A stretch of DNA of 32,415 bases from Desulfovibrio sp. Lineage in GTDB: Bacteria > Bacillota > Dethiobacteria > DTU022 > UBA8154. A program made the translations under genes and the position numbers. This document shows, in pieces, positions 515 to 30,794 of the stretch. Numbering within the stretch: position 1 is the first letter of the stretch; every line of letters starts with the position of its first letter. The notes beneath the pieces were generated by a model. The model was not told the DNA's origin and ran no database searches. It was given only the letters and a program-made list of their open reading frames with translations. The stretch is from positions 1 through 32,415 of the forward strand of contig JAGVAS010000054.1 of assembly GCA_020060185.1 (NCBI GenBank), given 5' to 3'.

Positions 515-3019
515 TTAGCAGGAACATGTTTCCCGACAAGTAAGGATAAAACCTGATTTGTTCATTTCATTTATTAACAGTGAAGAAGAAAAGGGAAGCA
601 TCGTTTTGATCTTCCAGGAGTACCCGTTGCTTTTTAAAATAACAGCACCATGAAAATCTGTACGGTAAATTTCCACACCCCCGTCCTCCAGGGCCGAGAG
701 AGTGGCGGGATGGGGGTGCCCAAAGGAGTTGGCTCCCACGGTAATAACGGCCACACGGGGAGCAGTGCTGTCAAGAAATTGTGGCAGGTTGGAGAGGTAC
801 CCGCCGTGATGGGGTACTTTTAAGATCTGGACGGGCAATATCTTTTCTCCCTTTAAAAGATTATCCACCGCCCTTGTCTCTATATCGCCCGTAAAAAGGA
901 AGCTTATTTCCTTATATCGCAGGTGTAAAACCAGGGAATTATTGTTAGAATCGCTGTTGGTACCGTTAAATAATTCCGAAGGCGGGCTTAGCACCCTTAT
1001 CTCCAGAGACGGACCCGCAACAAAGATGTCCCCTCTCCGGACAATTTCCCGGGGAATATTTTTTTCCCGGGCCAGTTCCAGGAGCTCGCCGTAGGACTGC
1101 GTCTCGGGTAATTCTACCGTTGTTACCAGCCGCTTTACCGGGATTTTATCCAGGACAGCAAACAACCCGCCGTAATGATCCTCATGAGGGTGGCTTATTA
1201 TAACCATATCCAGCTTTTTGACACGGCGGTATTCCAGGAAAGGTACCACAACAAGGCGCCCCGTTTCGTCAATATTTCCCATGTAAGCAGGCTTTCCGCC
1301 GCTGTCCAGAAGAATATTTTGCCCCTGCGGGGTGTGGATAAAGATGGCATCTCCCTGCCCCACATCCAGGAAAACTATTTCCAGCGTGGAAGAGCCGATG
1401 CCGGGCAATCCCCACCATGTTACAAAAAGAGCTATGAGCAGGAGAAACACCAGGAAATAAAAAGGCCTTACCCGAAACTTGCAACGGTAATAGGCGGAAA
1501 GTAAAACTCTCCACCCGCCGGCCAGTAGCGCAAGGAAAAGATAGTATAACATTATTTCCGTTAATCTCGGTGGGTACACTTCACGGTACGAAAAAGGCAG
1601 GGCGCTAAACATCCTGGCAATAAAGAGAATGTAAGACAAAAGAGGATAATTTGCCAGGTTTAACAGTGAACCGGATAGGGGCCATACCAGGCCCAGGAGC
1701 GCAGAAACAAGCCCCAGGCCCAGTACCAGGGCCATAACGGGTAAAACAAATATATTGGCAATAAGGGCTACCAGGGAAACCTGCCTGAAATAATAGGCGG
1801 TCAGGGGAATTACGCCGAGCTGGGCTGCCAGCGTTACGGCTAGAAGCGAGGAAATCATCTTTACCGGAGAAAGAGTAAAAGAGAAAGGCAACCTGGCCAG
1901 AATTGCGGCGATCTTTTCCTGCAATAACGGGGTTAAAAAGAGTATTGCTGTTGTAGCCGCATAGGAAAGCTGGAAACTTACGGAAAATAGTAAAAGAGGG
2001 TTATAAACAAGGGTAATCAATACCGCAGCCGCCAGGGCTGTGGGAAAGTCCCCGGGCCGATCCAGGTGTACGGCTCCCATGGCCAGGAGAACCATTATAA
2101 AGGCCCGTATGGCAGCAGGCTTTAAACCGCACAGGTAAACGTAGGCAAAAAGAAGCAAAGCAACAAAAAGGTACGTGCACCATCCCTGCAGGCCTGTCCG
2201 CCTTCCCAACAGAAAAATAGCACCGGCTACCAGCCCTACGTGCAGGCCGGAAACTGCCAGCAAATGAGAAATGCCGCTCTGGCTGAACAATTGTCCTGTT
2301 TCCCGATCCAGGGCACTTCTTTCACCAAAAAGCATCCCCACCAGCAAGTTCCCCTCCCTTTGGGGAAGGTACGCTCTTAAAACAGCTGACATCCTGTTCC
2401 TGACTTTAAAGGCTGCCAGCTGCAGGCGGGAAAGCTCTTTAGAGATGCCCAAAAAAGTGACACCGGCAGCCGGACCATAAAAAGCTGCCGCTATTCCCCT
2501 CGTTTCCAGGAAAGACTGGTAATCAAATCCACCCGGGTTGCGGAGGCCTTTAGGCTCATATATTTTCCCCCGTAAGGATACTTTCTGCCCGTATGACAAA
2601 TCTAAAGGTATCTCCGCTTTTTCTTTCCATTGAAGAGTTACCCGGACCCTGCCGTTTACGGAATACTCCTCTTCCCTGAAACGAACTTTTTCCGAACGAA
2701 GCGTAAAGACCACATCATCCTCACGCCAGAGAGGCTCGTCTTCCACCATCCCTACCAGCAGGCAGTTCTCCCCGCTGTAGTCCCGGATGTTGCCCCGAAC
2801 CTTATGCAAAGAATAATTATAAACAAGCCCCCCGGCAACCAGGAAAACCAGCAAAAGGGGGATAAAAACCTGTACCACGTTTTTCTGGTTAAAGATATTC
2901 CATAAAGCCCAGAGAAGAGCGGCAGCTGCCGGAAGGATAAATATGTAAGGCGAAAAACAACGCCCCAGGATAATTCCTGCGACGTACGATAAGGTTAATA
3001 AAACCAGGGGACGGGTCAT
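515..3019 (-). CDS. comEC: ComEC/Rec2 competence DNA channel
   Basis: An 834-residue integral membrane protein for moving single-stranded DNA across the cytoplasmic membrane during transformation. Order: short N-terminal helices (about 1-65), an OB-like soluble domain (about 65-200, 'NIRDYSGENCLLVG', 'RNPGGFDYQSFLETRGI'), the Competence domain with many helices (about 220-520, 'SGISHLLAVSGLHVG', 'LKPAAIRAFIM'), then a metallo-beta-lactamase-like domain (about 550 to the end, 'FLDVGQGDAIF', 'SHPHEDHYGG', 'LKVPHHGG'). The full three-domain architecture is intact. The start is set by AGAGGAG seven bases before ATG 3019. The last 25 or so residues, beyond the usual end of the fold, have no recognisable counterpart. 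Its 5' half is also present as a decayed copy at 12818-13404. It lies downstream of the urea channel gene on the same strand, about 190 bases away. Confidence 0.95.
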   Translation of the reverse strand: MTRPLVLLTLSYVAGIILGRCFSPYIFILPAAAALLWALWNIFNQKNVVQVFIPLLLVFLVAGGLVYNYSLHKVRGNIRDYSGENCLLVGMVEDEPLWREDDVVFTLRSEKVRFREEEYSVNGRVRVTLQWKEKAEIPLDLSYGQKVSLRGKIYEPKGLRNPGGFDYQSFLETRGIAAAFYGPAAGVTFLGISKELSRLQLAAFKVRNRMSAVLRAYLPQREGNLLVGMLFGERSALDRETGQLFSQSGISHLLAVSGLHVGLVAGAIFLLGRRTGLQGWCTYLFVALLLFAYVYLCGLKPAAIRAFIMVLLAMGAVHLDRPGDFPTALAAAVLITLVYNPLLLFSVSFQLSYAATTAILFLTPLLQEKIAAILARLPFSFTLSPVKMISSLLAVTLAAQLGVIPLTAYYFRQVSLVALIANIFVLPVMALVLGLGLVSALLGLVWPLSGSLLNLANYPLLSYILFIARMFSALPFSYREVYPPRLTEIMLYYLFLALLAGGWRVLLSAYYRCKFRVRPFYFLVFLLLIALFVTWWGLPGIGSSTLEIVFLDVGQGDAIFIHTPQGQNILLDSGGKPAYMGNIDETGRLVVVPFLEYRRVKKLDMVIISHPHEDHYGGLFAVLDKIPVKRLVTTVELPETQSYGELLELAREKNIPREIVRRGDIFVAGPSLEIRVLSPPSELFNGTNSDSNNNSLVLHLRYKEISFLFTGDIETRAVDNLLKGEKILPVQILKVPHHGGYLSNLPQFLDSTAPRVAVITVGANSFGHPHPATLSALEDGGVEIYRTDFHGAVILKSNGYSWKIKTMLPFSSSLLINEMNKSGFILTCRETCSC

Positions 3020-3088
3020 AACAACGCTCCTCTAAAAACCTTAAATTAAATACAAGTATACTTCTCCTTTCCCCCTCTTTTCCCTTTA

Positions 3089-3210: not shown

Positions 3211-4260
3211 TTACTGGTTTTTAGCGTAGAAAAATTGTAAATGTTGTTCTGGCGTTGTCATCGTTCCCTCCACGGGAGTAAAAACAAGTGATGTTTTCCC
3301 TATTAAAACGAAAGCCAGAGTCCCCAGGCAAAAGGGTAATGTAAGAGCAGGAACACCCCATGGAACTAAAAACGCACTTATAGCTCCAAAAAGCAAAGCA
3401 ACAACGATAGCACAACCAATTGCCAGAAGGGCGGATCGCCACGTAAGGACATAAAAAAAACCACCAATAGCAATAGCAGCAACAAAAGTATTAAATCCCC
3501 ACAGGCCGTTATAAATTGTATAACTGTTCGCTCCAAGGGCAACTCCTGCCAGCATCCCCACTCCCGAACCAACAAGGGCAAAAGTTCCTGCAATACGTGA
3601 AGCTGCAAGGATCCCGGCAAATATAATAATTCCACTTAAAGGATTGTTGACAAAAAAAAGCTGCCCGATTCCACGAAAAACCGCATTAAAAATAAAGATA
3701 ATATCTAAATAATAAATATTATCAACAACATCGGTTATCGCAGGCAAAGGCGGAGCAGCTACTGAAATTATGGTACTTTCAAAAAAATAAAAAGAAGCGG
3801 CAAGAAAAAGCAAAGCTACAAAATTAAAAGGTAATGTAAAAGACGGTATTTTCCAGACATCAAATATTTTATTTAATGCCTCTGTCAATATAGTGCTTAT
3901 GGCGCTGAGGATAAGAATAAAAATAATTACCCTTCCATCCCACATGTTTTTACTAAATGTTGCCAGGGCCAACCCTACCAGTACACCATTAAAGCCATAG
4001 AGACCAGCACGAATTGTTTCTCTATTTAAACCAAGAATGATTGCTGCTAAAACAGAAACCGCAACTCCAAACGTACCTGCAAAACCAAGCCATCCGGAGA
4101 AGAAATATATTCCTGTTAAAATCATCAACCCTGTGAAGGGATTATTCATAAACACAACCTGGCCAATGCCCCGCAAGCAAGAATCAGCAAAGGCCAAAAC
4201 GGGGATACGAGCCGCCGTTTTTAACCACGCGGGCATGGTTCCATTAATATAACTAAACAT
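3211..4260 (-). CDS. Urea channel (UT family)
   Basis: A urea transporter of the UT family (about 349 residues), an internally duplicated, trimeric channel for passive urea flow. Both halves show the UT signature: 'NNPFTG' (39-44) and 'NNPLSG' (205-210), 'GLYGFNG' (86-92) and 'GLWGFNT' (252-258), and the LPxxTxPF-like boxes 'IPSFTLPF' (138-145) and 'VPALTLPF' (303-310). ATG 4260 follows GGAG by eight bases and is preferred over a GTG six codons earlier. It is the last gene of the minus-strand cluster that begins with the permease, 44 bases after the sodium-pump beta subunit. No urease or urea-splitting gene is nearby, so here the channel may release urea rather than supply it. The DNA is visibly more A+T-rich than comEC. 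Confidence 0.93.
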   Translation of the reverse strand: MFSYINGTMPAWLKTAARIPVLAFADSCLRGIGQVVFMNNPFTGLMILTGIYFFSGWLGFAGTFGVAVSVLAAIILGLNRETIRAGLYGFNGVLVGLALATFSKNMWDGRVIIFILILSAISTILTEALNKIFDVWKIPSFTLPFNFVALLFLAASFYFFESTIISVAAPPLPAITDVVDNIYYLDIIFIFNAVFRGIGQLFFVNNPLSGIIIFAGILAASRIAGTFALVGSGVGMLAGVALGANSYTIYNGLWGFNTFVAAIAIGGFFYVLTWRSALLAIGCAIVVALLFGAISAFLVPWGVPALTLPFCLGTLAFVLIGKTSLVFTPVEGTMTTPEQHLQFFYAKNQ

Positions 4261-4304
4261 AACATTTTCTCCAATCACTTTAAAATCAGTAGGTCCTTTT
4301 CAAC

Positions 4305-5448: not shown

Positions 5449-5859
5449 TTATTCAATAACTATCATTACATCTCCAGTATTAACGGTTGAACCACTAGCA
5501 ACATGTATTGATTTTATCAGTCCTGATGTGGGAGCGGTTACTTCATTTTCCATTTTCATCGCTTCCAGGATCAGTAATGTATCTCCTTCGTTAACGTTAT
5601 CACCGACTTTAACTTTAACGTTAATGACAGAACCAGGCATGGGCGCAACTACCTGGAAGCCAACACTGGTTTTAGGTCCGGTATCTTTTTTCTTCTCTTC
5701 AGAGGGAGATACTGAAATTGTCGGCTTTGCAGCAGGTGTTTGCTGCGCTTTGGGTATTGCAGATTTAGGTATTACGGGTGTAGAAAGAGCAGGTGAATCT
5801 GCTTCTTCCACTATGACCTCAAACGGCTCGCCGTTAACATATACGTTATATTTTTTCAT
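5449..5859 (-). CDS. Biotin carboxyl carrier protein of the decarboxylase
   Basis: A 136-residue biotinyl protein. An N-terminal beta-rich piece ('[15 protein letters not shown]') like that of decarboxylase gamma/biotin subunits is followed by a Pro/Ala/Lys-rich flexible linker (about 22-62) and a biotinyl domain (65-136) with the attachment motif 'EAMKMENEV'. The modified lysine is K102, 34 residues from the C terminus, as is usual. 'APMPGSV' begins the barrel. A GGGGG-type ribosome binding site precedes ATG 5859. In urea carboxylase the biotin domain is the C-terminal end of one long polypeptide; here it is a separate protein encoded between the gamma and beta subunits, as in Na+ pumps. No biotin carboxylase gene accompanies it, so biotin must receive its carboxyl group from a substrate rather than from ATP and bicarbonate, unless a carboxylase elsewhere serves it. 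Confidence 0.95.
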
Positions 5860-5894: not shown

Positions 5895-6278
5895 TTAAGT
5901 TTGATAATCTTGTTCTCTCTGGTTGTCCCCCCATGTTCTGGAGCGGTTCCGATCTACTGATTTTATGTGATAGGTACTGAAGTCTTTTTTAAAAGAATAT
6001 AAAAGGACACCCATGCTTGCAGCTACTCTTTTAGGTATTAAGTCCTGGCCGGAACCTTTCGTGGTACAGGCACTTTCCGCACCGGCTTCAAGATTGACTC
6101 CTGCAGCCGAAACAGGTTTTTCCGCTGTGTTAAAGACAGTTTTTGGTTGTTTTTTTCCTCGGACAGTAAATACTTTGTTAAAAATCATTAAAATAAACGC
6201 AAGTACAAGAAGTGTTACTATAACAACCAAAAACCCTACTGTTAAAATTTCAAAACCAAAGATAATAGTGTTATTCAT
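5895..6278 (-). CDS. OadG-like gamma subunit of the Na+ decarboxylase
   Basis: A small membrane protein with one strong helix near the N terminus (about residues 8-35, 'FEILTVGFLVVIVTLLVLAF'), followed by a basic and then polar tail. This is the layout of OadG/MmdD gamma or delta subunits, which hold the soluble carboxyltransferase to the beta subunit. Sequence conservation in the family is low, so the call depends on the helix, the length (127 residues) and its place between the carboxyltransferase and biotin-carrier genes. ATG 6278 has AAGG five bases upstream and is preferred over an overlapping GTG at 6284. The C-terminal 50 residues are hydrophilic with no conserved motif, and lack the histidine-rich end known from some OadG proteins. 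Confidence 0.75.
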   Translation of the reverse strand: MNNTIIFGFEILTVGFLVVIVTLLVLAFILMIFNKVFTVRGKKQPKTVFNTAEKPVSAAGVNLEAGAESACTTKGSGQDLIPKRVAASMGVLLYSFKKDFSTYHIKSVDRNRSRTWGDNQREQDYQT

Positions 6279-6303
6279 ACTCACCTTCCCCTAAATGAGA
6301 CAT

Positions 6304-7275
6304 TTATGTTAAGCTATTAAGCATTTTTTCTTGCCTCCAGCGGTTAGCAAAGGCTTCCTTGTAGCTCATTTTTTTAAAGTAAATGACGTTGTTAGCCGCT
6401 GCCTGACCAATCTTCCAAAACTCGGAGGTTACTATCGTAGCAATGGATACAAACCCGCCTAAGCTTGGACCATCAACTGTAAGGATAACAGGCATATCGC
6501 CTGTAAAATTTATGGTTCCGATGGCATAAGCACAATCATGAATGTTCGATGGATGGCTCCCGCCCTCCCCTCCATCTGTTCTTGCAAATTGCAGGCGTGG
6601 TCCTTCAAGCCTGTAGCCGAGCCTGTTGGAGTTGTGATGTACGCGCCACGGTGTACTGTAAAAAGTCTCAACATCTTCCGGAGTGAAAAAGTCCGGCGCC
6701 TCGTGAGGTCCGGGAATCACTCCTACGGCCCATTCGTGGTTATATTCAGGTATGTTTTCGGGAGGCAATGTCCTGCCCTCTTTTGTTAAAACTTCTTTTT
6801 TCTTCGCCTCGTCGATTGAAAGCAAATCTCCGGCTTTAAGTGGACGTCCCTCAAGCCCACCAAACCGTCCGTAGGGAAACGTGGCCTTGCTTCCAAGATA
6901 AAGTGGAATATCAAAACCGCCAGCAACGCTCAGGTAGGAACGAAAGCCGGAACCCTGCAAAGTTCCGAAAGAAAGAATATCACCTTTTTTTACATGTACA
7001 GCTTCCCACCAGGGAACCTCCTGGTCCGCAAGATTTCCATGCAACTTGGCGCCTGTTAAAGCAATCATGGTATCCTTCAGGAAAAGTAATTTCGGACCTT
7101 TAGCTGTTATCTCCAACCCTGCCGCATCATCCTGGTTTCCTACCAGCCTGTTGGCGATACGAAAAGCTAGTGGGTCCATCGGCCCCGATGGTGGAATACC
7201 TATATTCCAGTAACCTACCCTGCCAGGAAAATCCTGCACGGTAGTGTGCAAGCCGCCATCTATTACAGCTATCAT
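6304..7275 (-). CDS. Carboxyltransferase subunit, urea-carboxylase type (AHS2/KipA family)
   Basis: One half of the carboxyltransferase that, in urea or guanidine carboxylase, moves a carboxyl group between biotin and the amino group of the substrate. Visible signatures are 'TTVQD' (11-15), 'PPSGPMD' (28-34), 'AGLEIT' (52-57), 'IALTGA' (71-76), 'SVAGGFD' (116-122), 'PEYNHEW' (176-182), 'APDFFTPED' (193-201), 'HNSNRLGYRLEG' (214-225), 'TDGGEGGSHPSNIHD' (233-247) and 'DGPSLGGF' (268-275). From memory the middle and C-terminal blocks match the urea carboxylase branch, not 5-oxoprolinase PxpC. ATG 7275 is preferred to a TTG at 7299 because it begins the conserved 'MIAVIDGG' and has AAAGGA upstream. 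It lies about 30 bases after its partner. Default pipelines would probably call it PxpC or 'allophanate hydrolase subunit 2'. Confidence 0.92.
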   Translation of the reverse strand: MIAVIDGGLHTTVQDFPGRVGYWNIGIPPSGPMDPLAFRIANRLVGNQDDAAGLEITAKGPKLLFLKDTMIALTGAKLHGNLADQEVPWWEAVHVKKGDILSFGTLQGSGFRSYLSVAGGFDIPLYLGSKATFPYGRFGGLEGRPLKAGDLLSIDEAKKKEVLTKEGRTLPPENIPEYNHEWAVGVIPGPHEAPDFFTPEDVETFYSTPWRVHHNSNRLGYRLEGPRLQFARTDGGEGGSHPSNIHDCAYAIGTINFTGDMPVILTVDGPSLGGFVSIATIVTSEFWKIGQAAANNVIYFKKMSYKEAFANRWRQEKMLNSLT

Positions 7276-7304
7276 GGCCTGATCCGTCCTTTCATTCAAA
7301 GATA

Positions 7305-8339
7305 TTAATAACCCTTTGTCCAGCGAAATGACGCTTCTTCCTGTTTAGCTTTAAATGCCTCAACTTCATCTTTAATTGAATTGAGAAAAGAATTATATTT
7401 TTTAAGATTAAAAATGTCACTTTCAATTCGTAACGAATAATCTTGTAAAAGCATCGCCTCCCTAGCCTCTTCCAATTCAGGTTCGCTTACCGGTTCAAAC
7501 TGGATACGATCAAAAGGTCTTAGCAACCAGGGTGCCTCGGAAAAAGCGGGAGAAGTCTGGTTCGTGCTCCAAATGGAAAGTGTACGCCCGACTAACTGGT
7601 AGCCTCCAGGGGATTCCATCGGATAAATACAAACATAGGAACCTCCAATACCCACGGCACCTTCGGGAGTCCACATTCTTGCCGGGTTATATTTGGGAAC
7701 TACAAGGCGGTACCTGGGATCCAGTGGGACAGCACAGGGTGCTCCCAGGTAGACATCCCCTAGGGCCAGAACCATATGCTGTGTAGCAGTATGATAGTAT
7801 ATAACCTGCTCTATTCCATCCAGAGCGTTACAGCGGGCAACAAACTCCATATTATCCGGGAGATAGGGAGCCTCAGCCCTTACCGATTTCATATATTTGG
7901 CTATGGCCTCCTTGGTCCAGCGATCATGATAGGCAATGGGAAGGTAAACAATCCGTGAGGAAACCTCTGCTTCCCCAAGGGAGGGTAAAGAATGTTCAAG
8001 GTCATAAAGCTCCTCAAGTAACTTGTTGAGAGGAAGACGCAGGCAATCATAATTTACCAGCAAAGAACGAACCCCCGGAGCAGTTTCAAGCACTCCTTCT
8101 ATTTGTTTTTCCTTAATAGCATGATCAAGAGCATACACACGGAAAGTAAGATCTAAATCCAACACCATTTCTCCGTATTCCACCAGCAGATAAGCATCAC
8201 CCGCCATTCTATAAACCACGCGCGGGGCCCCTTCTCTTTCAGGGATAGAACTGGCAACAGCATCAGAAAACAATTCCACCATTTTTCCCGGGGTTAGATC
8301 TAACAGGTTTCCTTTATCATTTTTTTTGTTTATGTTCAT
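7305..8339 (-). CDS. Carboxyltransferase subunit, urea-carboxylase type (AHS1/KipI family)
   Basis: The second half of the carboxyltransferase. The KipI/AHS1 fold covers about residues 40-285, with 'LDPRYRLVVPKYNPARMWTP' (206-225), 'GGSYVCIYPMESPGGYQLVGRT' spanning 232-253 and 'PWLLRPFDRIQFEPVS' (270-285). At 344 residues it is about 100 longer than stand-alone KipI or PxpB. The extra C-terminal part (286-344, with 'NLKKYNSFL' and 'EAFKAKQEEA') corresponds, from memory, to the linker that in urea carboxylase joins this domain to the biotin domain. That supports origin from a urea/guanidine carboxylase, split into subunits. ATG 8339 follows a G-rich stretch (GTGGGG) by eight bases. A 193-base gap with a strong hairpin separates it from the hydrolase gene upstream. 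Confidence 0.92.
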   Translation of the reverse strand: MNINKKNDKGNLLDLTPGKMVELFSDAVASSIPEREGAPRVVYRMAGDAYLLVEYGEMVLDLDLTFRVYALDHAIKEKQIEGVLETAPGVRSLLVNYDCLRLPLNKLLEELYDLEHSLPSLGEAEVSSRIVYLPIAYHDRWTKEAIAKYMKSVRAEAPYLPDNMEFVARCNALDGIEQVIYYHTATQHMVLALGDVYLGAPCAVPLDPRYRLVVPKYNPARMWTPEGAVGIGGSYVCIYPMESPGGYQLVGRTLSIWSTNQTSPAFSEAPWLLRPFDRIQFEPVSEPELEEAREAMLLQDYSLRIESDIFNLKKYNSFLNSIKDEVEAFKAKQEEASFRWTKGY

Positions 8340-8532: not shown

Positions 8533-9393
8533 CTACTTCAGATTCGCAGATTTTACAGCGTCTATAAAACGCTGCGAGTCAGAAACCCAGCCAAAGACGC
8601 CTCCCTGCATCTTAATGGATTTAATGGCTGATTGATAGTTGCCGTAGTCTGTCGCTCCGGTGCAATCCTTCAGCAGTACGCACCAGTAACCAAAATCGTT
8701 TGATTCTCGCATGATGGTATGGACACATACATCAGTAGTAATCCCGGAGATTACCAGATGTGTAACGCCAAGATTTTTTAATACCATGTGGATAGTACTG
8801 GAACCATAAGCTCCCTTTCCGGCCTTATCCACAATATATTCTCCCTCAACCGGGTAAAGCTGCTCAATAATATCCCAATTTTTCTCCCCACGGACCAGCA
8901 GTCGCCCCAGACCATTGGGAGGAATATCACCTATACCTACCCCGTTACCGATTATCTTGCTGCGTAGAACTTTATTAAATGGTGCATCAGAAAGATCAGG
9001 TTCATGACCTTCCCTGGTATGCACAACTTTAATATCGGTTCCCCGAACCGCATCCAGAACATTCCTGATTGGTTTAATAGGTGCGGCTGTTAGAGATAAA
9101 TCATAACCCATAACATCGACATAACCTTTTTCCCCGCAAAAGTCTACCTGCATATCAATGGCAATAAATGCAGTCCTGGCAGAATCAAATTCCACATAGG
9201 CGACATCACCAAACTGAGGGCAATCCTCTACCTCTAACTTAAAAAGTTTACCTTTGGGAGGTCCGTACAGCCAGGTTGGAAAAGCAAAGGTTTTAGTCTC
9301 CTTGAAATATTCATAGCCCTCTTGAACTTTCTCTAACAGTATTTCACGGTTTTTTTGCAGCAAAGACTCATATTTTCTGATTTCAGACATCAT
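8533..9393 (-). CDS. Cysteine hydrolase, biuret-hydrolase-like (isochorismatase superfamily)
   Basis: An amidohydrolase with the Asp-Lys-Cys triad of the isochorismatase-like family: D80 ('IAIDMQVDF'), K190 ('IVDKAGKG') and C223 ('ITTDVCVHT'). From memory, biuret hydrolase BiuH uses D36, K142 and C175 with Q215 contacting substrate. The spacing here is the same for Lys-Cys (33) and Cys-Gln (40, Q263 in 'KMQGG') and near for Asp-Lys. Blocks 'CGEKGYVDVMGYDLSL', 'HTREGHEPDLSD', 'ATDYGN' and 'KMQGGVFGWVSDS' also recall BiuH more than ureidoacrylate hydrolase RutB. The expected reaction would be biuret to allophanate and ammonia; triuret or another ureide remains possible. An N-terminal extension of about 45-70 residues is unusual. 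Start ATG 9393 follows AAAGGGGAG. No allophanate hydrolase is encoded nearby. Confidence 0.85.
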   Translation of the reverse strand: MMSEIRKYESLLQKNREILLEKVQEGYEYFKETKTFAFPTWLYGPPKGKLFKLEVEDCPQFGDVAYVEFDSARTAFIAIDMQVDFCGEKGYVDVMGYDLSLTAAPIKPIRNVLDAVRGTDIKVVHTREGHEPDLSDAPFNKVLRSKIIGNGVGIGDIPPNGLGRLLVRGEKNWDIIEQLYPVEGEYIVDKAGKGAYGSSTIHMVLKNLGVTHLVISGITTDVCVHTIMRESNDFGYWCVLLKDCTGATDYGNYQSAIKSIKMQGGVFGWVSDSQRFIDAVKSANLK

Positions 9394-9542: not shown

Positions 9543-10892
9543 CTAAAAGTTTTGCTTCTCTGAAGCCGAACTTTTTACTTCCGGTGCAACTTCCTTTTCA
9601 CGGAAAATAACCTGTTCCATAATTATTACGAGGATAATAACCAGAATAACGGGATTATTCAGAAGCGTTCCAACCAGGCGGGGTATATTATCATAAAACC
9701 CCTGTGGAAGCATGGACATCCCCAGCGCAAAGAACACAGAAAAACCGACGATAAATATTTCCCTGGTCTGGAACGTGCTTCCCTGGTGCCATATATTTGC
9801 GCCAATACCGATCAAGGTTGAAGCCACACCCAGTAAAACAGCTCCAGCTACTGGTTGTGGCATTGCTGCCATAAGCCCCCCAACCTGCCCAAAGAAACTT
9901 AATACAATAAAAACTATGCTGGCAACCAGGATAAAGAAACGGGCAGCCACCCTCGTTAGAAGAATCAGTCCTAAATTTTCACCGTAGGAAACATGGCTCG
10001 GAACACCGAGAATACCTGCAACAGTACCCTCGACGAGGCCGAAAATGAAGAAATAACGCTTTTCTCTTGTAGCGGGTAATTGTGCACCAATGATACCTGT
10101 ATATCCCTGTATATTGCCGTACAGGTTTATAGCGGAGAAAATATTCACAATGATCATTGTAATAATTAAATCAACAGGGGGTATCTGAGTACCAAAGGGG
10201 AAAAGGCTCGGGGTAACAAATACAGGCATGGATCTGACCAGTGCCCAGTCAAATTCTCCCAGGGCGATAAAAATTACATAACCCAGTACGATCGCAATAA
10301 GTACTGGGATAGTAGCCAGCAAGCCTTTCCCTTTAATGGAGATATAACCGCATAACAAAGCAAGAATAATTCCGGCATAGAAAGGCCATGCCGCCTGGTA
10401 GGAAGCAATCAGGCTAATTCCTACCGAGCTGGTAGCCAGCCCCACCATCATAACCATGGCCCCAAGAACTAGCGGCGTCCATACCTTGCCAATATAGCTT
10501 ATAAGGCCTAGTCCTCCGATAATTGCTACAAATATCCCGGCAATTATATATGCGTTAAAAGATAAAAGCGCATATTCCTTGCCCCCAATAACATAAGCTG
10601 CAACAATAGCAAGGGAAGGGATGATATTGGGACCAGAAACCATGGCCAGCCGGTGTCCGCTTGCTGCCTGTACCAGGGTTGAAATACCAATCATCAAAAC
10701 AACTCTGGCCATATAACTGGCAAGAACGTCTCCCGTAAGCCCCAGTCCGAGTCCCACAATGGCATAACCCCAAACTACCGGGTAGAACATTATCAGCACC
10801 CATTGAATTGAATAAATGATCATATCTTTTGTTGACTTTGGCTTATCGTCCGTTCCGTAAACCAGTTGGAACTGGCTTTGTACATCTGCCAT
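9543..10892 (-). CDS. NCS2-family nucleobase-type permease
   Basis: A 449-residue membrane protein of the nucleobase/ascorbate transporter (NCS2) family, with about 12-14 hydrophobic segments. The family signature [Q/E/P]NxGxxxxTR is present as 'ENLGLILLTR' (about residue 310), and an early 'SGPNIIPSLA' lies at the position of the first half-helix. NCS2 members carry uracil, xanthine, urate and related compounds by symport. The substrate cannot be read from sequence; the neighbouring hydrolase suggests a biuret- or ureide-like compound with the same -CO-NH-CO- edge as uracil or urate. GGAAGGAGG eight bases before ATG 10892 is the best ribosome binding site of the cluster. It is the first gene after the pucR terminator, so it probably begins the transcript. 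The 150 bases to the hydrolase gene hold no recognisable feature. Confidence 0.92.
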   Translation of the reverse strand: MADVQSQFQLVYGTDDKPKSTKDMIIYSIQWVLIMFYPVVWGYAIVGLGLGLTGDVLASYMARVVLMIGISTLVQAASGHRLAMVSGPNIIPSLAIVAAYVIGGKEYALLSFNAYIIAGIFVAIIGGLGLISYIGKVWTPLVLGAMVMMVGLATSSVGISLIASYQAAWPFYAGIILALLCGYISIKGKGLLATIPVLIAIVLGYVIFIALGEFDWALVRSMPVFVTPSLFPFGTQIPPVDLIITMIIVNIFSAINLYGNIQGYTGIIGAQLPATREKRYFFIFGLVEGTVAGILGVPSHVSYGENLGLILLTRVAARFFILVASIVFIVLSFFGQVGGLMAAMPQPVAGAVLLGVASTLIGIGANIWHQGSTFQTREIFIVGFSVFFALGMSMLPQGFYDNIPRLVGTLLNNPVILVIILVIIMEQVIFREKEVAPEVKSSASEKQNF

Positions 10893-11121: not shown

Positions 11122-11862
11122 TTAAATATCGACCATGGCAAGTATTTTCAAAGCCATATGAAGAGAAAATCTGCACTCGGCATTATTAAGTGAAACCCCA
11201 AGTATTTCTTCGATATTTTTTATGCGGTAAGCCAGGGTCTTGGGATGTATGAACATTTTTTCTGCCGTTAGCTTCTGGTTATTATTATTAGCAAGCAACT
11301 GCTCCAGCGTAAATAAAAGCTTGGTATTCTTTTTTTTGTCATAGTCCAGGAGATTGCCAATTGTTTTATCAACAAAACTTTCCAGTTCTTTTTTATCATG
11401 GAATTGCGCCAGAATCCTGTATACTCCTAAATCATCATAATGGTAGACACCATTGTTTCCCCATACCGATTTACCCACCTTGATAGCAGTAAGCGCCTCC
11501 TTGTAACTGTTCTTAATATCCATAATATCGGGGTAAAAGGAGCCTATTCCAATAGTTACTGTAAAATCCTTAATATTCTCATCTATGGCTCTTTTAATGT
11601 GCCTAGCAATACTGCAAGAAAATTTTTTAACATCTTGATCCAAAGTAGGATTTGGAAAAGGATAAAGAACAATTATGCTGTCACTACGATCCCAAACAAT
11701 GCTTTCCCCCGCTTTAGAAAAAAAGGTTTTAAAAACAAAATTAAACAAGCTGCTTAACAGGTTGTGAGACATTTTTTCATCTTTTTTTAAATTTTGTAAG
11801 AATATATCCTCAAAGGAATCGACATCAATTAAAAATAATATATACGAAAGAGTTAAATTCAT
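11122..11862 (-). CDS. PucR-family regulator, C-terminal part (after frame break)
   Basis: This frame holds the central GGDEF-like region and the C-terminal PucR/CdaR helix-turn-helix: 'TLEQLLANNNNQKLTAEKMF' followed by 'HPKTLAYRIKNIEEILGV' is the typical HTH_30 block. The true coding frame begins upstream of ATG 11862: reading back gives 'YRDDFLNDLVDGEIESKETV', which joins in sense to the end of the upstream frame at the T7 run 11947-11953 (A7 on the coding strand). One extra A would restore one protein of about 535 residues. ATG 11862 has no good ribosome binding site. PucR regulators control catabolism of purines and other nitrogen compounds and are usually encoded beside their targets. 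A terminator follows. Confidence 0.85.
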   Translation of the reverse strand: MNLTLSYILFLIDVDSFEDIFLQNLKKDEKMSHNLLSSLFNFVFKTFFSKAGESIVWDRSDSIIVLYPFPNPTLDQDVKKFSCSIARHIKRAIDENIKDFTVTIGIGSFYPDIMDIKNSYKEALTAIKVGKSVWGNNGVYHYDDLGVYRILAQFHDKKELESFVDKTIGNLLDYDKKKNTKLLFTLEQLLANNNNQKLTAEKMFIHPKTLAYRIKNIEEILGVSLNNAECRFSLHMALKILAMVDI

Positions 11863-11915
11863 GTTAAAAAACGCGCCTCTTTGTATAACTGTCTCCTTTG
11901 ATTCTATTTCCCCAT

Positions 11916-12728
11916 CTACAAGATCATTGAGAAAATCATCACGATATTTTTTTCCACTTCAGCAGCAGCCTGTTTTTTTAACAAAACCAGGGCAACAATC
12001 GTTGCAGCCCTTTCAATTGCCACAATATCTTCACTTTCCACCGATCGCCCTAGAATATTCATAGTTATATTGGCAAATATTTCATTATTAAGAAATACGG
12101 GCCTTTGAATAAACCCGTTTTCAGTTTCACCCCTATTTCCCAGTATATTTTCCAGGTTTTTATTTCTTTCTTTTTGTGGCTCAGCTTCTGCCAGCACTTC
12201 ATCGAAAACATTAATTATTTGCACCCGTGCATAACAAAGATTGGCAAGAGCAAAGGCAACTTCCTGAAATTCCCCTCCAGATAGTACCAAGCTGGTAAAG
12301 GTCTGGTGAATTTGTTCAGTCCTTTTGATAATGAGATAATCCCTGTTAATAACTTCTGCCAGTAAATCCCGAATAATTTTATCAAAGTGTGCATCTGGAG
12401 GCAATTCTATGATGGGAAAATTAAACTTATTTGCAATATTAATGGCTTCTTCGGGAAGGCCCTCCAGGAAACGGCGGGTTTTAACCGCTAGCCCTGTAAG
12501 TTTCTTGCCTGATAACTTTTTAATAAGATCAACAAAACTTGTAGAAGAATCTTTAAAAGGATAGCCCGTGGTTAAAAGAAACTCATCTTCTGAAACCCAA
12601 TCAACTATGTCAGGTACCTCCATAACATTCACAAAACGAATTTCCCGATACAAGCCTTGTTTACCAGCAATAACCCTGGCATTTTTCAAGCATTCCATGG
12701 TTAGCGCTTCTGATAAAGTGAAAGCCAT
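11916..12728 (-). CDS. PucR-family regulator, N-terminal part (before frame break)
   Basis: Residues 1-125 are the PucR N-terminal domain ('MECLKNARVIAGKQGLYREI', 'VNVMEVPDIVDWVSEDEFLL', 'LAVKTRRFLEGLPEEAI', 'NFPIIELPPDAHF'), which is taken to sense a ligand. The middle (130-255) is the variable part before the GGDEF-like domain. The frame ends artificially at 11916 after 'AAAEVEKN' because of a length difference in an A7 run, just where PucR proteins continue into the domain encoded at 11122-11862. Start ATG 12728 follows AGAGGTG by seven bases. The lesion is either a real mutation, a programmed slip or a sequencing error. If real, the protein lacks its DNA-binding domain and the neighbouring operon would not be controlled by it. 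Confidence 0.85.
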   Translation of the reverse strand: MAFTLSEALTMECLKNARVIAGKQGLYREIRFVNVMEVPDIVDWVSEDEFLLTTGYPFKDSSTSFVDLIKKLSGKKLTGLAVKTRRFLEGLPEEAINIANKFNFPIIELPPDAHFDKIIRDLLAEVINRDYLIIKRTEQIHQTFTSLVLSGGEFQEVAFALANLCYARVQIINVFDEVLAEAEPQKERNKNLENILGNRGETENGFIQRPVFLNNEIFANITMNILGRSVESEDIVAIERAATIVALVLLKKQAAAEVEKNIVMIFSMIL

Positions 12729-12817: not shown

Positions 12818-13404
12818 TTAGAGGTTTAAGTCTTCTTCCAGGAAAGCCCGGTAATCAAACCCACCCGGATTGCGTCTTTCCTTTGGCTCGTAGAGAACAC
12901 CCCGCAGGGATATTTTCTGTCCGTATGATAAAAAGGCAGAAGTACCCTCCTTACTCCTGTCCTCCTTTCCACCCCGGATCCCACCCTCGCTCACTCTGGA
13001 ATCATCCAACCGAAGCGTGACCCGGACCGTGCCGCTTACGGGATGCTCCTCTCCCCTGAACTGTACTTTTTCCGAACGAAGCGTAAAGACGACATCAATC
13101 CCCAAGCCAGAGAGGCTCGTCTTCCAGCATCCCCTACCAGCAGGCAGTTCTCCCCGCTGTAATCCCGGATGTTACCGCTAACCTTTTGCAGGGAAAGGTT
13201 GCAGCCCAGGCTCCCGGCAGTCAGGAAAATTAATAACAGGGGAATAAACGCCTTCAAACCTTCCCCCCTGCAAAGCAGGTTGAAGATAGTCCAGGCCAGC
13301 GCCCCCATAGCAAGGTAAACGGATACCCGGGTAGAAAAAGAATAACGCCCCAGGACTATTCCCAGGACATAAAAAAGGGTAATGAAAACCAGGGAACGGG
13401 CCAT
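12818..13404 (-). pseudogene. Decayed 5' fragment of a second comEC
   Basis: The translation matches the first 170 or so residues of the intact ComEC at 515-3019: 'NIRDYSGENCLLVG', 'VVFTLRSEKVQFRGEE', 'SYGQKISLRG', 'RRNPGGFDYRAFLE'. At least two frame changes separate the two readable pieces (near 13131 and near 13105). Identity to the intact copy is moderate by eye, so it is not a fresh duplication. The upstream non-coding bases also resemble those before the intact gene (CTCCTC, ACTTCT). Homology stops abruptly at the 'FLE' codons near 12826, where pucR-side sequence begins. The two comEC sequences therefore bracket the catabolic island in direct orientation. An in-frame insertion relative to the intact copy encodes a Gly/Glu-rich segment. 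Confidence 0.88.
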
Positions 13405-13514
13405 ATAAGCACTCCTCAGGCTAAACTGTAAACACAGGAAATACTTCTACTTTTTCCCTGATTTTCCTTTCCAAAAACAACAGTAGTAAAGAGCTTTAGA
13501 AATGAGTGCTTTAC

Positions 13515-16839: not shown

Positions 16840-17316
16840 ATGTCCCTCCCGCTGCTAACATTTCCCATTATCCTTTTCTGCCTGGGTATTATAGGAACCA
16901 TCTTACCCTTGTTGCCGGGCGTAACACTGATCTGGATCGGGATGCTTCTTTATGGAATCCTGACAGGATTTCAAAACCTTACTCCTGAATTTTACATCCT
17001 CCAGGGGCTGGCAGCCTTTTTGGTAATGTCCATCGACTATATGGCCACCGCCCTGGGTACCAAACATTTCGGTGGTTCCAGGACCGCTATGTGGGGAGCC
17101 GCACTTGGTCTTTTACTTGGTCTTATTATTTTAGGGCCCCTCGGAATTATTTTCGGCCCCTTCCTGGGAACACTGCTGGGTGAAATGCTAAAAGGAATAC
17201 CCCCGGAAAAGGCCCTTCGTTCGAGCTTCGGCGCCTTATTAGGCCTCCTCGGGGGTATAATACTGAAACTCAGTATAGAAATAGTTATGATTTATGTTTT
17301 TTTCCAGCACATCTAA
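16840..17316 (+). CDS. DUF456 family membrane protein
   Basis: A 158-residue membrane protein with about four hydrophobic helices and several Gly/Pro-rich turns ('LGIIGTILPLLPGVTLIWIG', 'LGPLGIIFGPFLGTLLGEML', 'SFGALLGLLGGIILKL'), the pattern of the DUF456 family. Glycine-zipper-like repeats (GxxxG) fill the second half. The function of the family is unknown. ATG 16840 has AGAGGA nine bases upstream; a longer frame from 16555 would translate the repeat element and is rejected. The gene converges on gpr and their last codons overlap by four bases, so they may share transcript ends. Confidence 0.85.
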   Translation: MSLPLLTFPIILFCLGIIGTILPLLPGVTLIWIGMLLYGILTGFQNLTPEFYILQGLAAFLVMSIDYMATALGTKHFGGSRTAMWGAALGLLLGLIILGPLGIIFGPFLGTLLGEMLKGIPPEKALRSSFGALLGLLGGIILKLSIEIVMIYVFFQHI

Positions 17317-18344
17317 TGGACGACAGCAGCCCTGTTTTCCTCTTCCTGGGCGATTTTCTGGTGAAAAGCCGCATCAAGGCTGGCAGTAATGACCAGAGAG
17401 ATATCGTCAATAAGAGTATCTATTTCTTTGGGAGTCACAATCAGGTCGCCCGCGAAAGGCTGCATAACTTCCTTGATAATATTTCTTTTTTCCTCCCAGT
17501 CCATTTTTTGAACTATGCCGGCAAACATATTTCCCTGTGGAGATTCCCTTTTTAAAGCCTCCGCCAGTTTATCCATGCTGTCCCCGGCAATGGTTATAGC
17601 ATCTACCACCGTTGGTACGCCTATGGCAAATACTGGTATACCTTCCATCGTTTGCCTGTTTATCCCCAGGCGGCGGTTGCCCACCCCGGAGCCGGGAACA
17701 ACACCTGTATCGGATACCTGGATGGTAGTAGCCAGCCTATCCATTCGTTGAGCGGCTAGGGCATCAATAGCTATAATCACGTCCGGGCGGATTTTTTTCA
17801 CGACTCCTGTAATGATCTCGCTGGTTTCAATACCAGTAATGCCTAACACCCCGGGTGAGATAGCACAGACGGAGCGGTAGCCCTCCCCCAGTATTTCCGG
17901 CTTCATCTGCAGAATGTGGCGGGTAATGAAGAGCTCCTGCACCACCCGGGGTCCCAGGGCATCGGGGGTGACGTTCCAGTTGCCCAAGCCGATGACCAGT
18001 ACGCTTTGCTCACCATTCAGGTTAAAGAAGGCTTGCAGCTCTTTATAGAATACGCGCACAACCTTATCCTGTAAAGCAGTATTCTTCTTGCGCAGGCCGG
18101 GGACTTCAAGTGTCAAGTAGTTGCCAATTTGCTTTCCCATCCGGGCTGCAGCCTGCTCCGTAGTAATGGAAACCCGGTTAATGATAATGTCTTCGTCTCC
18201 TTCTTTTTCCACGTTCACCCCCGGGATATCTTCAGTCCTGGTAATGACTTCATGCGCCTCCAGGGCCAGGTCAGTCCGGACGTTAAACCCCGGTACACAA
18301 CCAAATTTCTCAGAGCTGTTTAATTCAGAAAAACTAAAAACCAT
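17313..18344 (-). CDS. gpr: Germination protease GPR
   Basis: The aspartic-type endopeptidase (family A25) that degrades small acid-soluble spore proteins during germination; it is made in the forespore as a zymogen. The 343 residues cover the full family length. Signatures are 'VRTDLALEAHE' near the pro-region cleavage site, 'VIGLGNWNVTPDALGPRVV' with the first conserved Asp, 'SPGVLGITGIET', 'IAIDALAAQ' with the second, 'SDTGVVPGSGVGNRR' and 'GIPVFAIGVPTVVDA'. This is the clearest evidence that the organism forms endospores. The ribosome binding site before ATG 18344 is distant (GGGGGGAGG about 23 bases away), so the exact start is less certain. In relatives gpr often precedes spoIIP; here a decayed PAS gene stands upstream. 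Confidence 0.96.
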   Translation of the reverse strand: MVFSFSELNSSEKFGCVPGFNVRTDLALEAHEVITRTEDIPGVNVEKEGDEDIIINRVSITTEQAAARMGKQIGNYLTLEVPGLRKKNTALQDKVVRVFYKELQAFFNLNGEQSVLVIGLGNWNVTPDALGPRVVQELFITRHILQMKPEILGEGYRSVCAISPGVLGITGIETSEIITGVVKKIRPDVIIAIDALAAQRMDRLATTIQVSDTGVVPGSGVGNRRLGINRQTMEGIPVFAIGVPTVVDAITIAGDSMDKLAEALKRESPQGNMFAGIVQKMDWEEKRNIIKEVMQPFAGDLIVTPKEIDTLIDDISLVITASLDAAFHQKIAQEEENRAAVVH

Positions 18345-20826: not shown

Positions 20827-22770
20827 TCAAAAAGCAAACAAAAGACGGGAAAGTTCTTTAATCTTTTTTATACCTTTTACCTGACGGGGAAACAACGGAA
20901 TTTTTGCGATATGAATTCCTGAATATTTTTTATGCAAGTGGATCAGGTACCGTTTCTGCTGAACTCTTAGCTGACTGCAAAAGCTGCAGTTGCTGGCAGG
21001 AACAAGCATGTTCACCACCATGCTTGAGCTTTCGATCTTTAATTGTTCGAGGGTGGAAAAAAGCCGTTTTGTCTCAGACACAATCATTTCTTCTGGGACA
21101 ACCACTCCAATAAAAGCTGTTTCCTTGGGATTAAGGAGTTTATCCTGCAGAGTCCTTACAGATCTTGCCATTTCCAGCATCAGATTTGCCGTTCTCTGCA
21201 GCTGAACAAACTCTCTATATTTAAGCATCACCTTAAAAAAAGACCTGAGCCAGTTCCTGGTCAAATCCGGCAATTCAAGGAATCGAACCAAATGCCCCGT
21301 AGGAGCAGAGTCGAGGACGAAGATGTCGAAACCTTTCTGCACCTCCGGTTCCATCAACCTTAACAATGCCATAATTTCATCCAGTCCAGGGGGAGTGAGA
21401 TTGATAAGCTCGGTCAGAACCTCCCTGTCAAACTTTATATCCAGGTTTTTGCTGCCCAGGAACCCCTCAAAAACCTCTTCGATTTCTTTTTTGTACCTGC
21501 TTTTGAATTCACCCAGCATTTGCGGCGCGGCAATTTCCAAACCGAAAAGATTCCTCAATCCGGGCACCTCTGTAACACTGTTCCCAATGGCAACGCCAAA
21601 GCAGTCTGATAAAGAATGAGCAGGATCGGTAGAGCAAAGGAGAACTTTTTTCCCCTGTTCGGAAAGGTATAAACCCGTAGCTGCTGCAACGGTTGTTTTA
21701 CCTACCCCACCTTTTCCACCAACGATAATGTATTTTTTGCCGAGCAGCTCTTCTCCTGGAAGATAAGTTGATTTTAAAAGATCGTCGCTTAAACCTGTTA
21801 TTTCGGTAAAAAATTCTTTTCTTTGCCTTCTGGAGGTAAATATTTCTTCTCCAAAAGCCTCAAGCTCTTCAATTCCTTTCACTTCACGGGGCCACAAAGG
21901 TGCAAGAACTTTTTTAAACCCTTTAAATTTCCTCTCTATCGTCTCCAGCGCTTCGTCCTGATCGGACTTTCTCTCCTTGCAAAAAATACATTCAGGGTCT
22001 GATATTATACGATTAATAACCACCTGCTTCACAGGGATATTGTGCTCTTGTAAAAAGGCTACGAGCCTCTCTGTTTCATTGATGCTCATCACTTCCGGTA
22101 TCATTACGGGGACAAATAATGTTTTAGTTGAATCGCTGAGTAACTTTCGCAAGCGAGAGACTCTATTCTTCCAGCTCTCAATGAATTTATCGGTTTCGTC
22201 TGAGGTATAACGACCGAAAACCGAACTTATGTAGCGGTGTTTTGCCAGCATTAGGTCCATTACATGGAGCCAATTATTCATCTGTTCGGGGAGTTCAAGC
22301 ATCCTGGAGGTATGTCCGGTGGGCGCGGTATCAAGTATTATTACATCATAACTATGTTCCATCAAATATTCTGTCAGCACAATAATCGCCATGAGTTCAT
22401 CCAAGCCGGGCAGCGAAAGAGAAAAAAAGTGTTTAATATCTTCTTCGTCAAAGTAAGTGCCTCTTTTGACAATTTCAGTTAATACACTGTTGTAATTGCG
22501 CTTGAACAGCTCCAGCTCTCTAGAGGCATCAAGTTCCAGGACAAAAAGGTTCTCCACACCTGATACAGGTACAGGAGTGTTTCCCAGAGATGTTCCCAAG
22601 CTGTCGCTCAGGGAGTGGGCCGGATCGGTAGAGGCTAGCAGAGTGCTTTGACCCCTCCGGGCGCAATGCAAAGCTGAGGCAGCTGCACAGGTGGTTTTAC
22701 CCACTCCTCCTTTGCCGCCAAATAAAATCAGGGCAAGATTTCTGTCCAAAATGAAAGAAGTAGAACACAT
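20827..22770 (-). CDS. Double ArsA/Get3-like ATPase of the gas-vesicle operon
   Basis: Two ArsA/Get3-type ATPase domains in tandem (647 residues). Each has a deviant P-loop (18-27 and 351-360, 'GGKGGVGKTT'), switch I 'DPAHS' (49-53, 382-386) and the 'D(T/S)APTGH...LELP' block (147-161, 487-501). Each also has a CxxC (261-264 'CIFC', 595-598 'CSFC'), the zinc motif that joins two Get3 chains in eukaryotes and archaea. There are no vicinal cysteines of the arsenite-site type that I can assign. With the CxxC pairs and the operon context, a chaperone for hydrophobic proteins such as GvpA is more likely than arsenite export; no arsB, arsR or arsD is present. TAGGAGAG before ATG 22770 fixes the start. 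Confidence 0.9.
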   Translation of the reverse strand: MCSTSFILDRNLALILFGGKGGVGKTTCAAASALHCARRGQSTLLASTDPAHSLSDSLGTSLGNTPVPVSGVENLFVLELDASRELELFKRNYNSVLTEIVKRGTYFDEEDIKHFFSLSLPGLDELMAIIVLTEYLMEHSYDVIILDTAPTGHTSRMLELPEQMNNWLHVMDLMLAKHRYISSVFGRYTSDETDKFIESWKNRVSRLRKLLSDSTKTLFVPVMIPEVMSINETERLVAFLQEHNIPVKQVVINRIISDPECIFCKERKSDQDEALETIERKFKGFKKVLAPLWPREVKGIEELEAFGEEIFTSRRQRKEFFTEITGLSDDLLKSTYLPGEELLGKKYIIVGGKGGVGKTTVAAATGLYLSEQGKKVLLCSTDPAHSLSDCFGVAIGNSVTEVPGLRNLFGLEIAAPQMLGEFKSRYKKEIEEVFEGFLGSKNLDIKFDREVLTELINLTPPGLDEIMALLRLMEPEVQKGFDIFVLDSAPTGHLVRFLELPDLTRNWLRSFFKVMLKYREFVQLQRTANLMLEMARSVRTLQDKLLNPKETAFIGVVVPEEMIVSETKRLFSTLEQLKIESSSMVVNMLVPASNCSFCSQLRVQQKRYLIHLHKKYSGIHIAKIPLFPRQVKGIKKIKELSRLLFAF

Positions 22771-22849
22771 ACCGAATGATCTCTCCTAAAAAAAGAAGAA
22801 CCGCCTTATCTTTTTATCCACAAACCAATTTCCAAAATACTAATTATCC

Positions 22850-23107
22850 TTATTCTTCTGTATCTGCCCGGTTCCTGAGGCTTTTTCTTTTAAATTCCAG
22901 CAGATTTCCATTTTCATCTACGGTTACTTCATAAAGACCGAGCACGTCCATAGACGATGGTATCGATTCCTTTTCTACAAGCTCAACTTGAACAATCCAC
23001 CCTCCTTCGCTCTTGTTAATAGCAACTACCCCGGAAGGCTTCCGTTTGGTCAGGCTTGCTACAGAATTAAGTGCAGATTCAGCAATTTTTTCCAACAGGT
23101 TTGACAA
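22850..23107 (-). CDS. gvpO: Gas vesicle protein GvpO
   Basis: The 85-residue protein carries the GvpO core 'GGWIVQVELVE...SIPSSMDVLGLYEVTVDENGNLLEFKR': a W-containing beta strand, 'IP', 'DVLGLYEV' and a final basic strand. GvpO is an accessory protein needed for vesicle formation in haloarchaea and found in many bacterial clusters; its exact role is unclear. The start is TTG 23107 (AGGTGAG five bases upstream). The N-terminal 30 residues form a helix that varies in the family. The gene lies 21 bases after an uncharacterised gene and 79 bases before the ATPase gene. Confidence 0.85.
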   Translation of the reverse strand: MSNLLEKIAESALNSVASLTKRKPSGVVAINKSEGGWIVQVELVEKESIPSSMDVLGLYEVTVDENGNLLEFKRKSLRNRADTEE

Positions 23108-23128
23108 CGCTTCTCACCTCTCCTTTTT

Positions 23129-23515
23129 TCAATACTCAATAAACATGGAAGAATTGCTGCTGTTTTGAGCTGTTTCACTAATTGTCCTTTCCTTACCTGT
23201 TTCTTTTTTCTGCCTTTCGGCCATAAGCTGCAGCCTGTGCCTGCTTCTTTCCTTGTTCTGTTCTTTAATGGATTTAAGTTTTGAGCGCATGCTGAAGAGT
23301 TTTTTTCTCGCTTTTTGCATGGCAAGCTCCTGTTTGGCAAACCATTGCCGGTCTGTCTCTTTCTGAGCTGCCAGTAAGTTTTCATCTATGGAGTAAGGAG
23401 TGTTCTCTTCTGTTCCAGAAAGGGCGTTAATTGTCTTCAAGCGAGCTTGAGAAAATATCTCGCCCGGCATCTTTAAATCTCTCATCGTCCTCAGATTCCA
23501 GAGACTTTCACCCAT
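23129..23515 (-). CDS. Uncharacterised basic coiled-coil protein in the gas-vesicle operon
   Basis: A 128-residue protein of no recognised family. The central part (about 50-108) is strongly helical and rich in Lys, Arg, Gln and Glu ('WFAKQELAMQKARKKLFSMR', 'SIKEQNKERSRHRLQLMAER'), so a coiled coil is likely; both ends are polar. ATG 23515 overlaps the end of the gvpS/J gene by 25 bases and has GGAGAA upstream, a translationally coupled start. A second frame (23059-23385) overlaps it but would run into gvpO and has less natural composition. It may be a diverged counterpart of the small charged accessory proteins (GvpI, GvpQ, GvpP) of other clusters; this is a guess from size and charge. Confidence 0.65.
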   Translation of the reverse strand: MGESLWNLRTMRDLKMPGEIFSQARLKTINALSGTEENTPYSIDENLLAAQKETDRQWFAKQELAMQKARKKLFSMRSKLKSIKEQNKERSRHRLQLMAERQKKETGKERTISETAQNSSNSSMFIEY

Positions 23516-23856: not shown

Positions 23857-23857
23857 C

Positions 23858-26102: not shown

Positions 26103-26106
26103 AGCT

Positions 26107-29292: not shown

Positions 29293-29302
29293 TTTTTACA
29301 CC

Positions 29303-29842: not shown

Positions 29843-29864
29843 GTTTTCTCACCCGCTTTCCGCT

Positions 29865-30773: not shown

Positions 30774-30794
30774 AGCAGTTCACCGCCTTTAGGG

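Follow-up and report, generated by a model that had tools for sequence, protein, structure and literature searches.

A UT-family urea channel as the possible product exit of a predicted Na+-pumping allophanate decarboxylase operon

The window (the whole stretch of DNA that we analysed, 32,415 nucleotides) holds an operon on its minus strand, with a PucR gene upstream; the genes are transcribed in the order PucR, NCS2, BiuH, carboxyltransferase C/D, carboxyltransferase A/B, OadG, biotin carrier, OadB and UT. From carboxyltransferase C/D to UT the gaps between the genes are 5, 19, 35, 16 and 44 bp. The features of the locus are as follows.

3211..4260, minus strand: UT-family urea channel, 349 aa, start ATG at 4260 (Pfam UT 284 bits), the sole copy in the genome
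4305..5432, minus strand: OadB-type carboxybiotin decarboxylase / Na+ pump, 375 aa (OAD_beta 532 bits, TIGR01109 508 bits)
5449..5859, minus strand: biotin carrier protein, 136 aa, EAMKME motif, Lys102 (Biotin_lipoyl 81 bits)
5895..6284, minus strand: OadG-like small subunit, 129 aa (OAD_gamma 28.2 bits, just above the cut-off of 27)
6304..7299, minus strand: carboxyltransferase A/B, urea-carboxylase type (TIGR02712 445 bits at model positions 445-767, versus 182 bits for PxpC), Asn264
7305..8339, minus strand: carboxyltransferase C/D, urea-carboxylase type (TIGR02712 391 bits versus 65 bits for PxpB), Asp195 and Lys216
8533..9393, minus strand: BiuH-type biuret amidohydrolase, 286 aa (NF050097 285 bits, cut-off 370; PDB 6azo)
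9543..10892, minus strand: NCS2-family permease (Xan_ur_permease 154 bits), 68% identical to the NCS2 protein of G256, a genome of the same phylum
11122..12728, minus strand: PucR-family regulator, frame broken once (ORFs 11916-12728 and 11122-11862; PucR 118 bits, HTH_30 71 bits)
12836..13470, no strand assigned: decayed second comEC 5′ region, matching 2504-3087 (self-BLAST, 72-83% identity in three blocks)

The sequence-only reading had placed a complete UT-family channel at 3211-4260, and both its coordinates and its description proved correct. The reading frame spans 3211-4278 on the minus strand with ATG 4260 as the probable start, preceded by its own GGAG ribosome-binding site, and the protein covers positions 2-290 of the 292 of the Pfam model with 284 bits against a cut-off of 25, a whole-length family match. 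Profile searches recovered a single copy in the 2.47-Mb draft genome. The best solved relatives are the UT-A/UT-B channels (E ~1e-60) and the bacterial UT 3k3f, with which the protein shares whole-length homology, both pore repeats and the filter threonines. The repeats are intact, with RGIGQVVFMNNP spanning aa 30-41 and RGIGQLFFVNNP spanning aa 196-207; RGIGQ..NNP is present twice, and the threonines, whose role in the UT filter has been described (PMC12171576), lie within IPSFTLPFN and VPALTLPFC. The score of 207 bits with the NCBIfam yut equivalog TIGR03441 is below its cut-off of 274.6, which makes the protein a UT outside that equivalog. The gene starts 44 bp past OadB on the same strand. 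The claim that it is the last gene of the operon holds by gene order, but comEC begins 191 bp further downstream, and no terminator could be recognised in the gap. The reading was right that no urease, urea amidolyase or nitrogen-assimilation gene stands beside it: none was recognised among the neighbours.

At the other end of the operon, the NCS2 permease probably imports a nitrogen-rich substrate. The PucR protein continues in another frame across a single break, which lies within an A-run and may be either a real inactivation or a sequencing error. The best PDB relatives of the amidohydrolase are the R. leguminosarum BiuH 6azo and its variants. Its score is under the cut-off of the NCBIfam equivalog NF050097 (285 vs 370 bits), but the catalytic triad Asp80-Lys190-Cys223 is kept and the biuret contacts reported for the R. 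leguminosarum enzyme are present (Phe85, Tyr91, Lys193, Asp221, Gln263 and Val266). Asp221, Val266 and the BiuH-marking tyrosines place the protein with BiuH rather than with the TrtA type, as the positions that differ in triuret hydrolase are kept.

Both carboxyltransferase subunits have the K. lactis urea carboxylase (3va7) as their best PDB relative. Asn264 of the A/B subunit corresponds to K. lactis N1330, and Asp195 and Lys216 of the C/D subunit to D1584 and K1605. According to a published rule, urea carboxylases carry Asn and guanidine carboxylases Asp at the site of K. lactis residue 1330, with Asp1584 conserved (PMC11410670); Asn is the residue of urea carboxylases at 1330 (PMC12186494), and Lys1605 is the proposed general base (PMC5770610). 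A guanidine carboxylase was ruled out by Asn264, as the guanidine type would have Asp. In the trees the subunits group with urea carboxylases and apart from PxpB/PxpC, with support of 100/96 for A/B and a weaker 83/71 for C/D. The operon contains no biotin carboxylase domain; the genome has copies elsewhere.

Among some 400 genomes sampled across the phylum and the 98 that make up our class sample, no second pairing of such a carboxyltransferase with OadB was found, so the system rests on one draft genome. Standalone pairs elsewhere in the phylum were set aside, as they fall into the PxpB/PxpC branch and the flanks fetched for them contain no OadB. We also dropped as sisters the urea-carboxylase-like pairs of G004 and G015, which stand with their own biotin carboxylase and with LamB/YcsF-like and hydantoinase A/B-like proteins, names that we assigned by sequence inspection. 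These two loci (L080 in G004 and L079 in G015) perhaps encode an ATP-driven cyclic amide carboxylase.

No known alpha subunit (OadA, MmdA, GcdA or the malonate type) is found in the operon; the CT_A_B and CT_C_D proteins stand in its place. OadB keeps the Na+ site (Asp148, Ser327 and Asn357, equivalent to Asp203/Ser382/Asn412) and the conserved Arg334. OadB itself is common, being found in 77 of the 98 class genomes, and the genome has a second, native OadG-carrier-OadB set on contig C123, with OadB cut by the contig end. The two carriers are 65% identical. The window OadB protein shares 93% identity with its counterpart in the genus mate G004 and is placed inside the genus. At the DNA level, the 187-bp native OadB fragment is 94.7% identical to G004, while the window copy is 90.9% identical to either. 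The OadG, carrier and OadB genes of the window thus appear to have arisen by duplication of the pump module native to this lineage and to have been recruited to a foreign carboxyltransferase. No biotin carboxylase lies alongside, unlike at the pair of G004, which argues for a complex that would run decarboxylation rather than ATP-driven carboxylation.

The operon is bracketed by direct repeats (2504-3087 and 12836-13470); comEC lies just downstream and the outer copy of its 5′ region is decayed. UT was not found in four genus mates, the operon genes were absent from the comEC stretches fetched from them, and only one of the four, G004, has a urea-carboxylase-like carboxyltransferase pair, of a different kind. 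The flanking comEC repeats, together with the genus mates that lack UT and the operon genes at comEC, fit the insertion of an acquired cluster, and the repeat looks like an insertion scar. No Rfam family, Na+ riboswitches included, exceeded its threshold.

We searched the draft genome (2.47 Mb in 200 contigs) with profiles for enzymes that could use urea; the assembly is 89% complete, so each absence of a gene carries roughly one-in-ten doubt. No urease alpha subunit was found in the draft, nor in any of the four genus mates, and no complete urea carboxylase, the only urea carboxylase pieces being the operon subunits. The remaining matches to urea carboxylase lie on separate contigs; they are biotin carboxylases and carriers, which in our reading resemble those of pyruvate carboxylase and acetyl-CoA carboxylase. 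Allophanate hydrolase was not detectable in the draft either: the one similar match, an amidase on contig C150 (208 bits), was rejected as GatA (636 bits) adjoining a GatB-like gene. The draft also yielded no cyanuric acid hydrolase; no control genome matched this model, yet it matches G256 at 518 bits. The urease, or other urea-using system, that would have pointed to uptake according to the sequence-only reading was thus sought in the rest of the draft and not detected.

Based on the gene content, the gene order and the conserved key residues that we observe, and on the lack of urea-consuming genes in the draft, we infer the substrates, the direction of the reaction, the coupling to Na+ and the outward flow of urea. 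Quite probably, the operon converts biuret to urea and ammonia with Na+ pumping, and UT lets the urea diffuse out. NCS2 would import biuret or a precursor, and BiuH would deaminate biuret to allophanate and NH3. The two carboxyltransferase subunits would then shift the carboxyl group of allophanate onto the biotin carrier, in a reversal of urea carboxylase that leaves urea. Finally, OadB would decarboxylate the carboxybiotin and export Na+, while UT would act as a passive exit that holds internal urea low, the outward gradient arising from urea that is made inside and left unused. We assign the exit role to UT because the cell has no visible means of using urea. As urea could pass such a passive channel either way, this role can only be inferred. 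The idea of the channel as an exhaust receives partial support, from the missing urea consumer in the draft and from the urea-making types of its neighbours, with outward flow as the probable direction.

In water, allophanate breaks down spontaneously to urea and CO2 (PMC6219798), so its decarboxylation is downhill. By our computation, each tenfold drop in internal urea would add about 5.7 kJ/mol to the driving force. Urea also crosses lipid membranes unaided, with a permeability of 4e-6 cm/s. With this value, the estimated steady-state urea gradient is 0.2 mM at a flux of 0.01 and 23 mM at 1 umol/min/mg protein. A channel would thus be useful mainly at high, catabolic flux, and if the model is right, the presence of UT hints that biuret serves the cell as an energy source and not just for its nitrogen.

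The sequence-only reading also took it that UT genes in most bacteria accompany urease. Among the 98 class genomes, genuine urease (~190 bits) occurs in three, G075, G087 and G091, other matches reaching 22-32 bits, and exactly these three are the other carriers of UT, with UT directly behind ureC. Since all three other carriers have urease, UT appears to mark urea metabolism within the class, and the window pairs it with the biuret operon. Urease is likewise present in the UT-bearing L008, L012 and L013 outside the class. The nearest relatives of the window UT, however, are from Actinomycetota (50-53% identity) and adjoin the formamidase/acetamidase FmdA at each of the seven loci whose flanks could be read, with no ureC in the flanks fetched, so the premise holds in the class (3/3 other carriers) but was too strong as a general statement. 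The arrangement beside FmdA (L002-L007 and L010) suggests a formamide or acetamide role for those UTs. The protein is best seen as a channel for urea, perhaps also for similar small amides, with its neighbours setting its use. Plasmid searches, run for UT and for the carboxyltransferase, turned up nothing beyond ordinary urea carboxylases, carboxyltransferases of other kinds and distant UTs.

The formamidase neighbours keep alive the alternative that UT takes in another small amide or the substrate of the operon (formamide, acetamide or biuret) instead of letting urea out. We consider this unlikely, as BiuH is the sole amidase of the operon, NCS2 is already an importer, the contig of G256 with NCS2 and BiuH has no UT, and the pore motifs of the window UT are intact. 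Import of urea itself would follow the usual role of UT channels; nitrogen assimilation would then begin with an ATP-independent conversion of urea to allophanate, driven by the Na+ gradient. Biotin Na+ pumps are reversible in principle and the chemistry of urea carboxylase normally runs in the carboxylating direction, but there is no allophanate hydrolase that would remove the allophanate, BiuH would only add more of it, and allophanate is unstable and reverts to urea (PMC6219798), which makes this scheme quite improbable. It is similarly doubtful, if anything slightly more so, that UT chiefly lets out ammonia, whether alone or along with urea. In mammalian UTs, the pore and threonines that serve urea also conduct NH3 (PMC12171576), and BiuH would release one NH3 per biuret, so the channel may also pass this ammonia; on the other hand, NH3 readily crosses membranes and an organism grown on biuret would be expected to keep its nitrogen.

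Two further explanations concern the neighbours of UT. The carboxyltransferase pair could be a split urea carboxylase that borrows one of the biotin carboxylases encoded elsewhere in the genome, in which case UT would supply urea and OadB would have another job. We regard this as very unlikely, given that OadG, the carrier and OadB are tightly ordered between the carboxyltransferase and UT (gaps of 16-44 bp), that allophanate hydrolase is missing and that the similar pair of G004 keeps an adjacent biotin carboxylase, unlike the window. Least credible of all is that the junction of OadB and UT was created in assembly through the second OadB, cut as it is by the end of C123, with UT misassembled. 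This was tested and rejected by sequence divergence and by the neighbours of the native gene: the window OadB differs from the native type along its whole length (its last stretch is 79% identical to G004), and in G004 and G002 a gene other than UT adjoins the native OadB. Urea exit through UT appears the best of the readings considered, and the predicted pump is the more novel part, on stronger sequence evidence.

Related BiuH loci show what else may happen to allophanate. The nearest plasmid-borne relative, the BiuH of Natronorubrum (64%), is directly followed by allophanate hydrolase. In G256, NCS2 (68%) is followed by BiuH (74%) in the same order as in the window, and then by cyanuric acid hydrolase (532 bits), a deaminase-like amidohydrolase, a membrane protein, AllH and AllF/FdrA. 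In E. coli, AllFGH convert oxalurate to carbamoyl phosphate (PMC11326118). Three outlets thus appear joined to BiuH, namely hydrolysis, probable carbamoyl transfer and, as predicted for the window, Na+-pumping decarboxylation to urea. Among these loci only the outlet of the window should leave urea as an end product, and only the window has a UT. As a separate observation, the NCS2-BiuH-AtzD-AllH-AllF/FdrA run of G256 (L148, contig C25, 252-8566) is a probable fermentative pathway for cyanuric acid that ends in carbamoyl transfer. A further locus (L150, G383 contig C4, 9029-17106) encodes a BiuH-like protein (320 bits), AllG and CoA-ligase/FdrA-type proteins with PucR upstream, and L151 in G127 has a similar layout of BiuH and PucR.

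Compared with the known biotin-dependent Na+ decarboxylases for oxaloacetate, methylmalonyl-CoA, glutaconyl-CoA and malonate, the operon shares OadB with its Na+-site and decarboxylation residues, an OadG-like subunit and a free biotin carrier, all in one operon, but has a two-gene carboxyltransferase of urea-carboxylase type in place of the substrate-specific alpha subunit. With urea carboxylase and urea amidolyase it has in common the carboxyltransferase domains and the equivalents of Asn1330, Asp1584 and Lys1605; it differs in having these domains in two genes, in lacking a biotin carboxylase domain and allophanate hydrolase, and in the reverse direction expected. BiuH and a permease are also found in the catabolism of cyanuric acid and biuret (AtzD, BiuH, AtzF), where the Natronorubrum relative continues with atzF. 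In the window the decarboxylase pump replaces allophanate hydrolase, so one nitrogen instead of three is predicted to be released while urea remains. The window UT adjoins a predicted urea-producing system, whereas other UTs adjoin urease or formamidase. The nearest physiological parallel is urease-negative E. coli on allantoin, in which urea is an unusable end product of the anaerobic use of a nitrogen-rich compound (PMC11326118), as proposed here. There, however, urea is formed by ureidoglycolate lyase, without a Na+ pump or UT (PMC11326118).

Taken as a whole, the operon looks reasonably likely to represent a further class of biotin-dependent Na+ pump, an allophanate decarboxylase assembled from a urea-carboxylase-type carboxyltransferase and a copy of the OadG/carrier/OadB module. 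With it an anaerobe would conserve energy from biuret (or from cyanuric acid upstream), and the urea channel would be the product exit. In the open-licence literature that we searched, we found neither an allophanate-decarboxylating Na+ pump nor urea export by a UT in bacteria, and a Na+ pump run on allophanate would be new. If true, the small family of decarboxylation-driven Na+ pumps gains a substrate that loses CO2 without cleavage of a carbon-carbon bond, and biuret becomes a source of energy and not of nitrogen alone. Such a pump would have originated by swapping the carboxyltransferase and keeping the membrane module, and UT channels would gain a role in the release of urea from bacteria. 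The model predicts that urea builds up in the medium of a urease-negative organism grown on biuret. This compound occurs as an impurity in fertilisers and is fed to ruminants as a supplement, which gives its anaerobic fate practical importance.

Outside the operon, the window carries a gas-vesicle cluster at 20827-31640 (Gas_vesicle, GvpK, GvpL/F, AAA ATPases and Hsp20). Near the gas-vesicle genes lies a double ArsA/GET3-type ATPase (20827-22770), and the spore protease gene GPR (17313-18344) is found in the same lineage as the gas-vesicle cluster.
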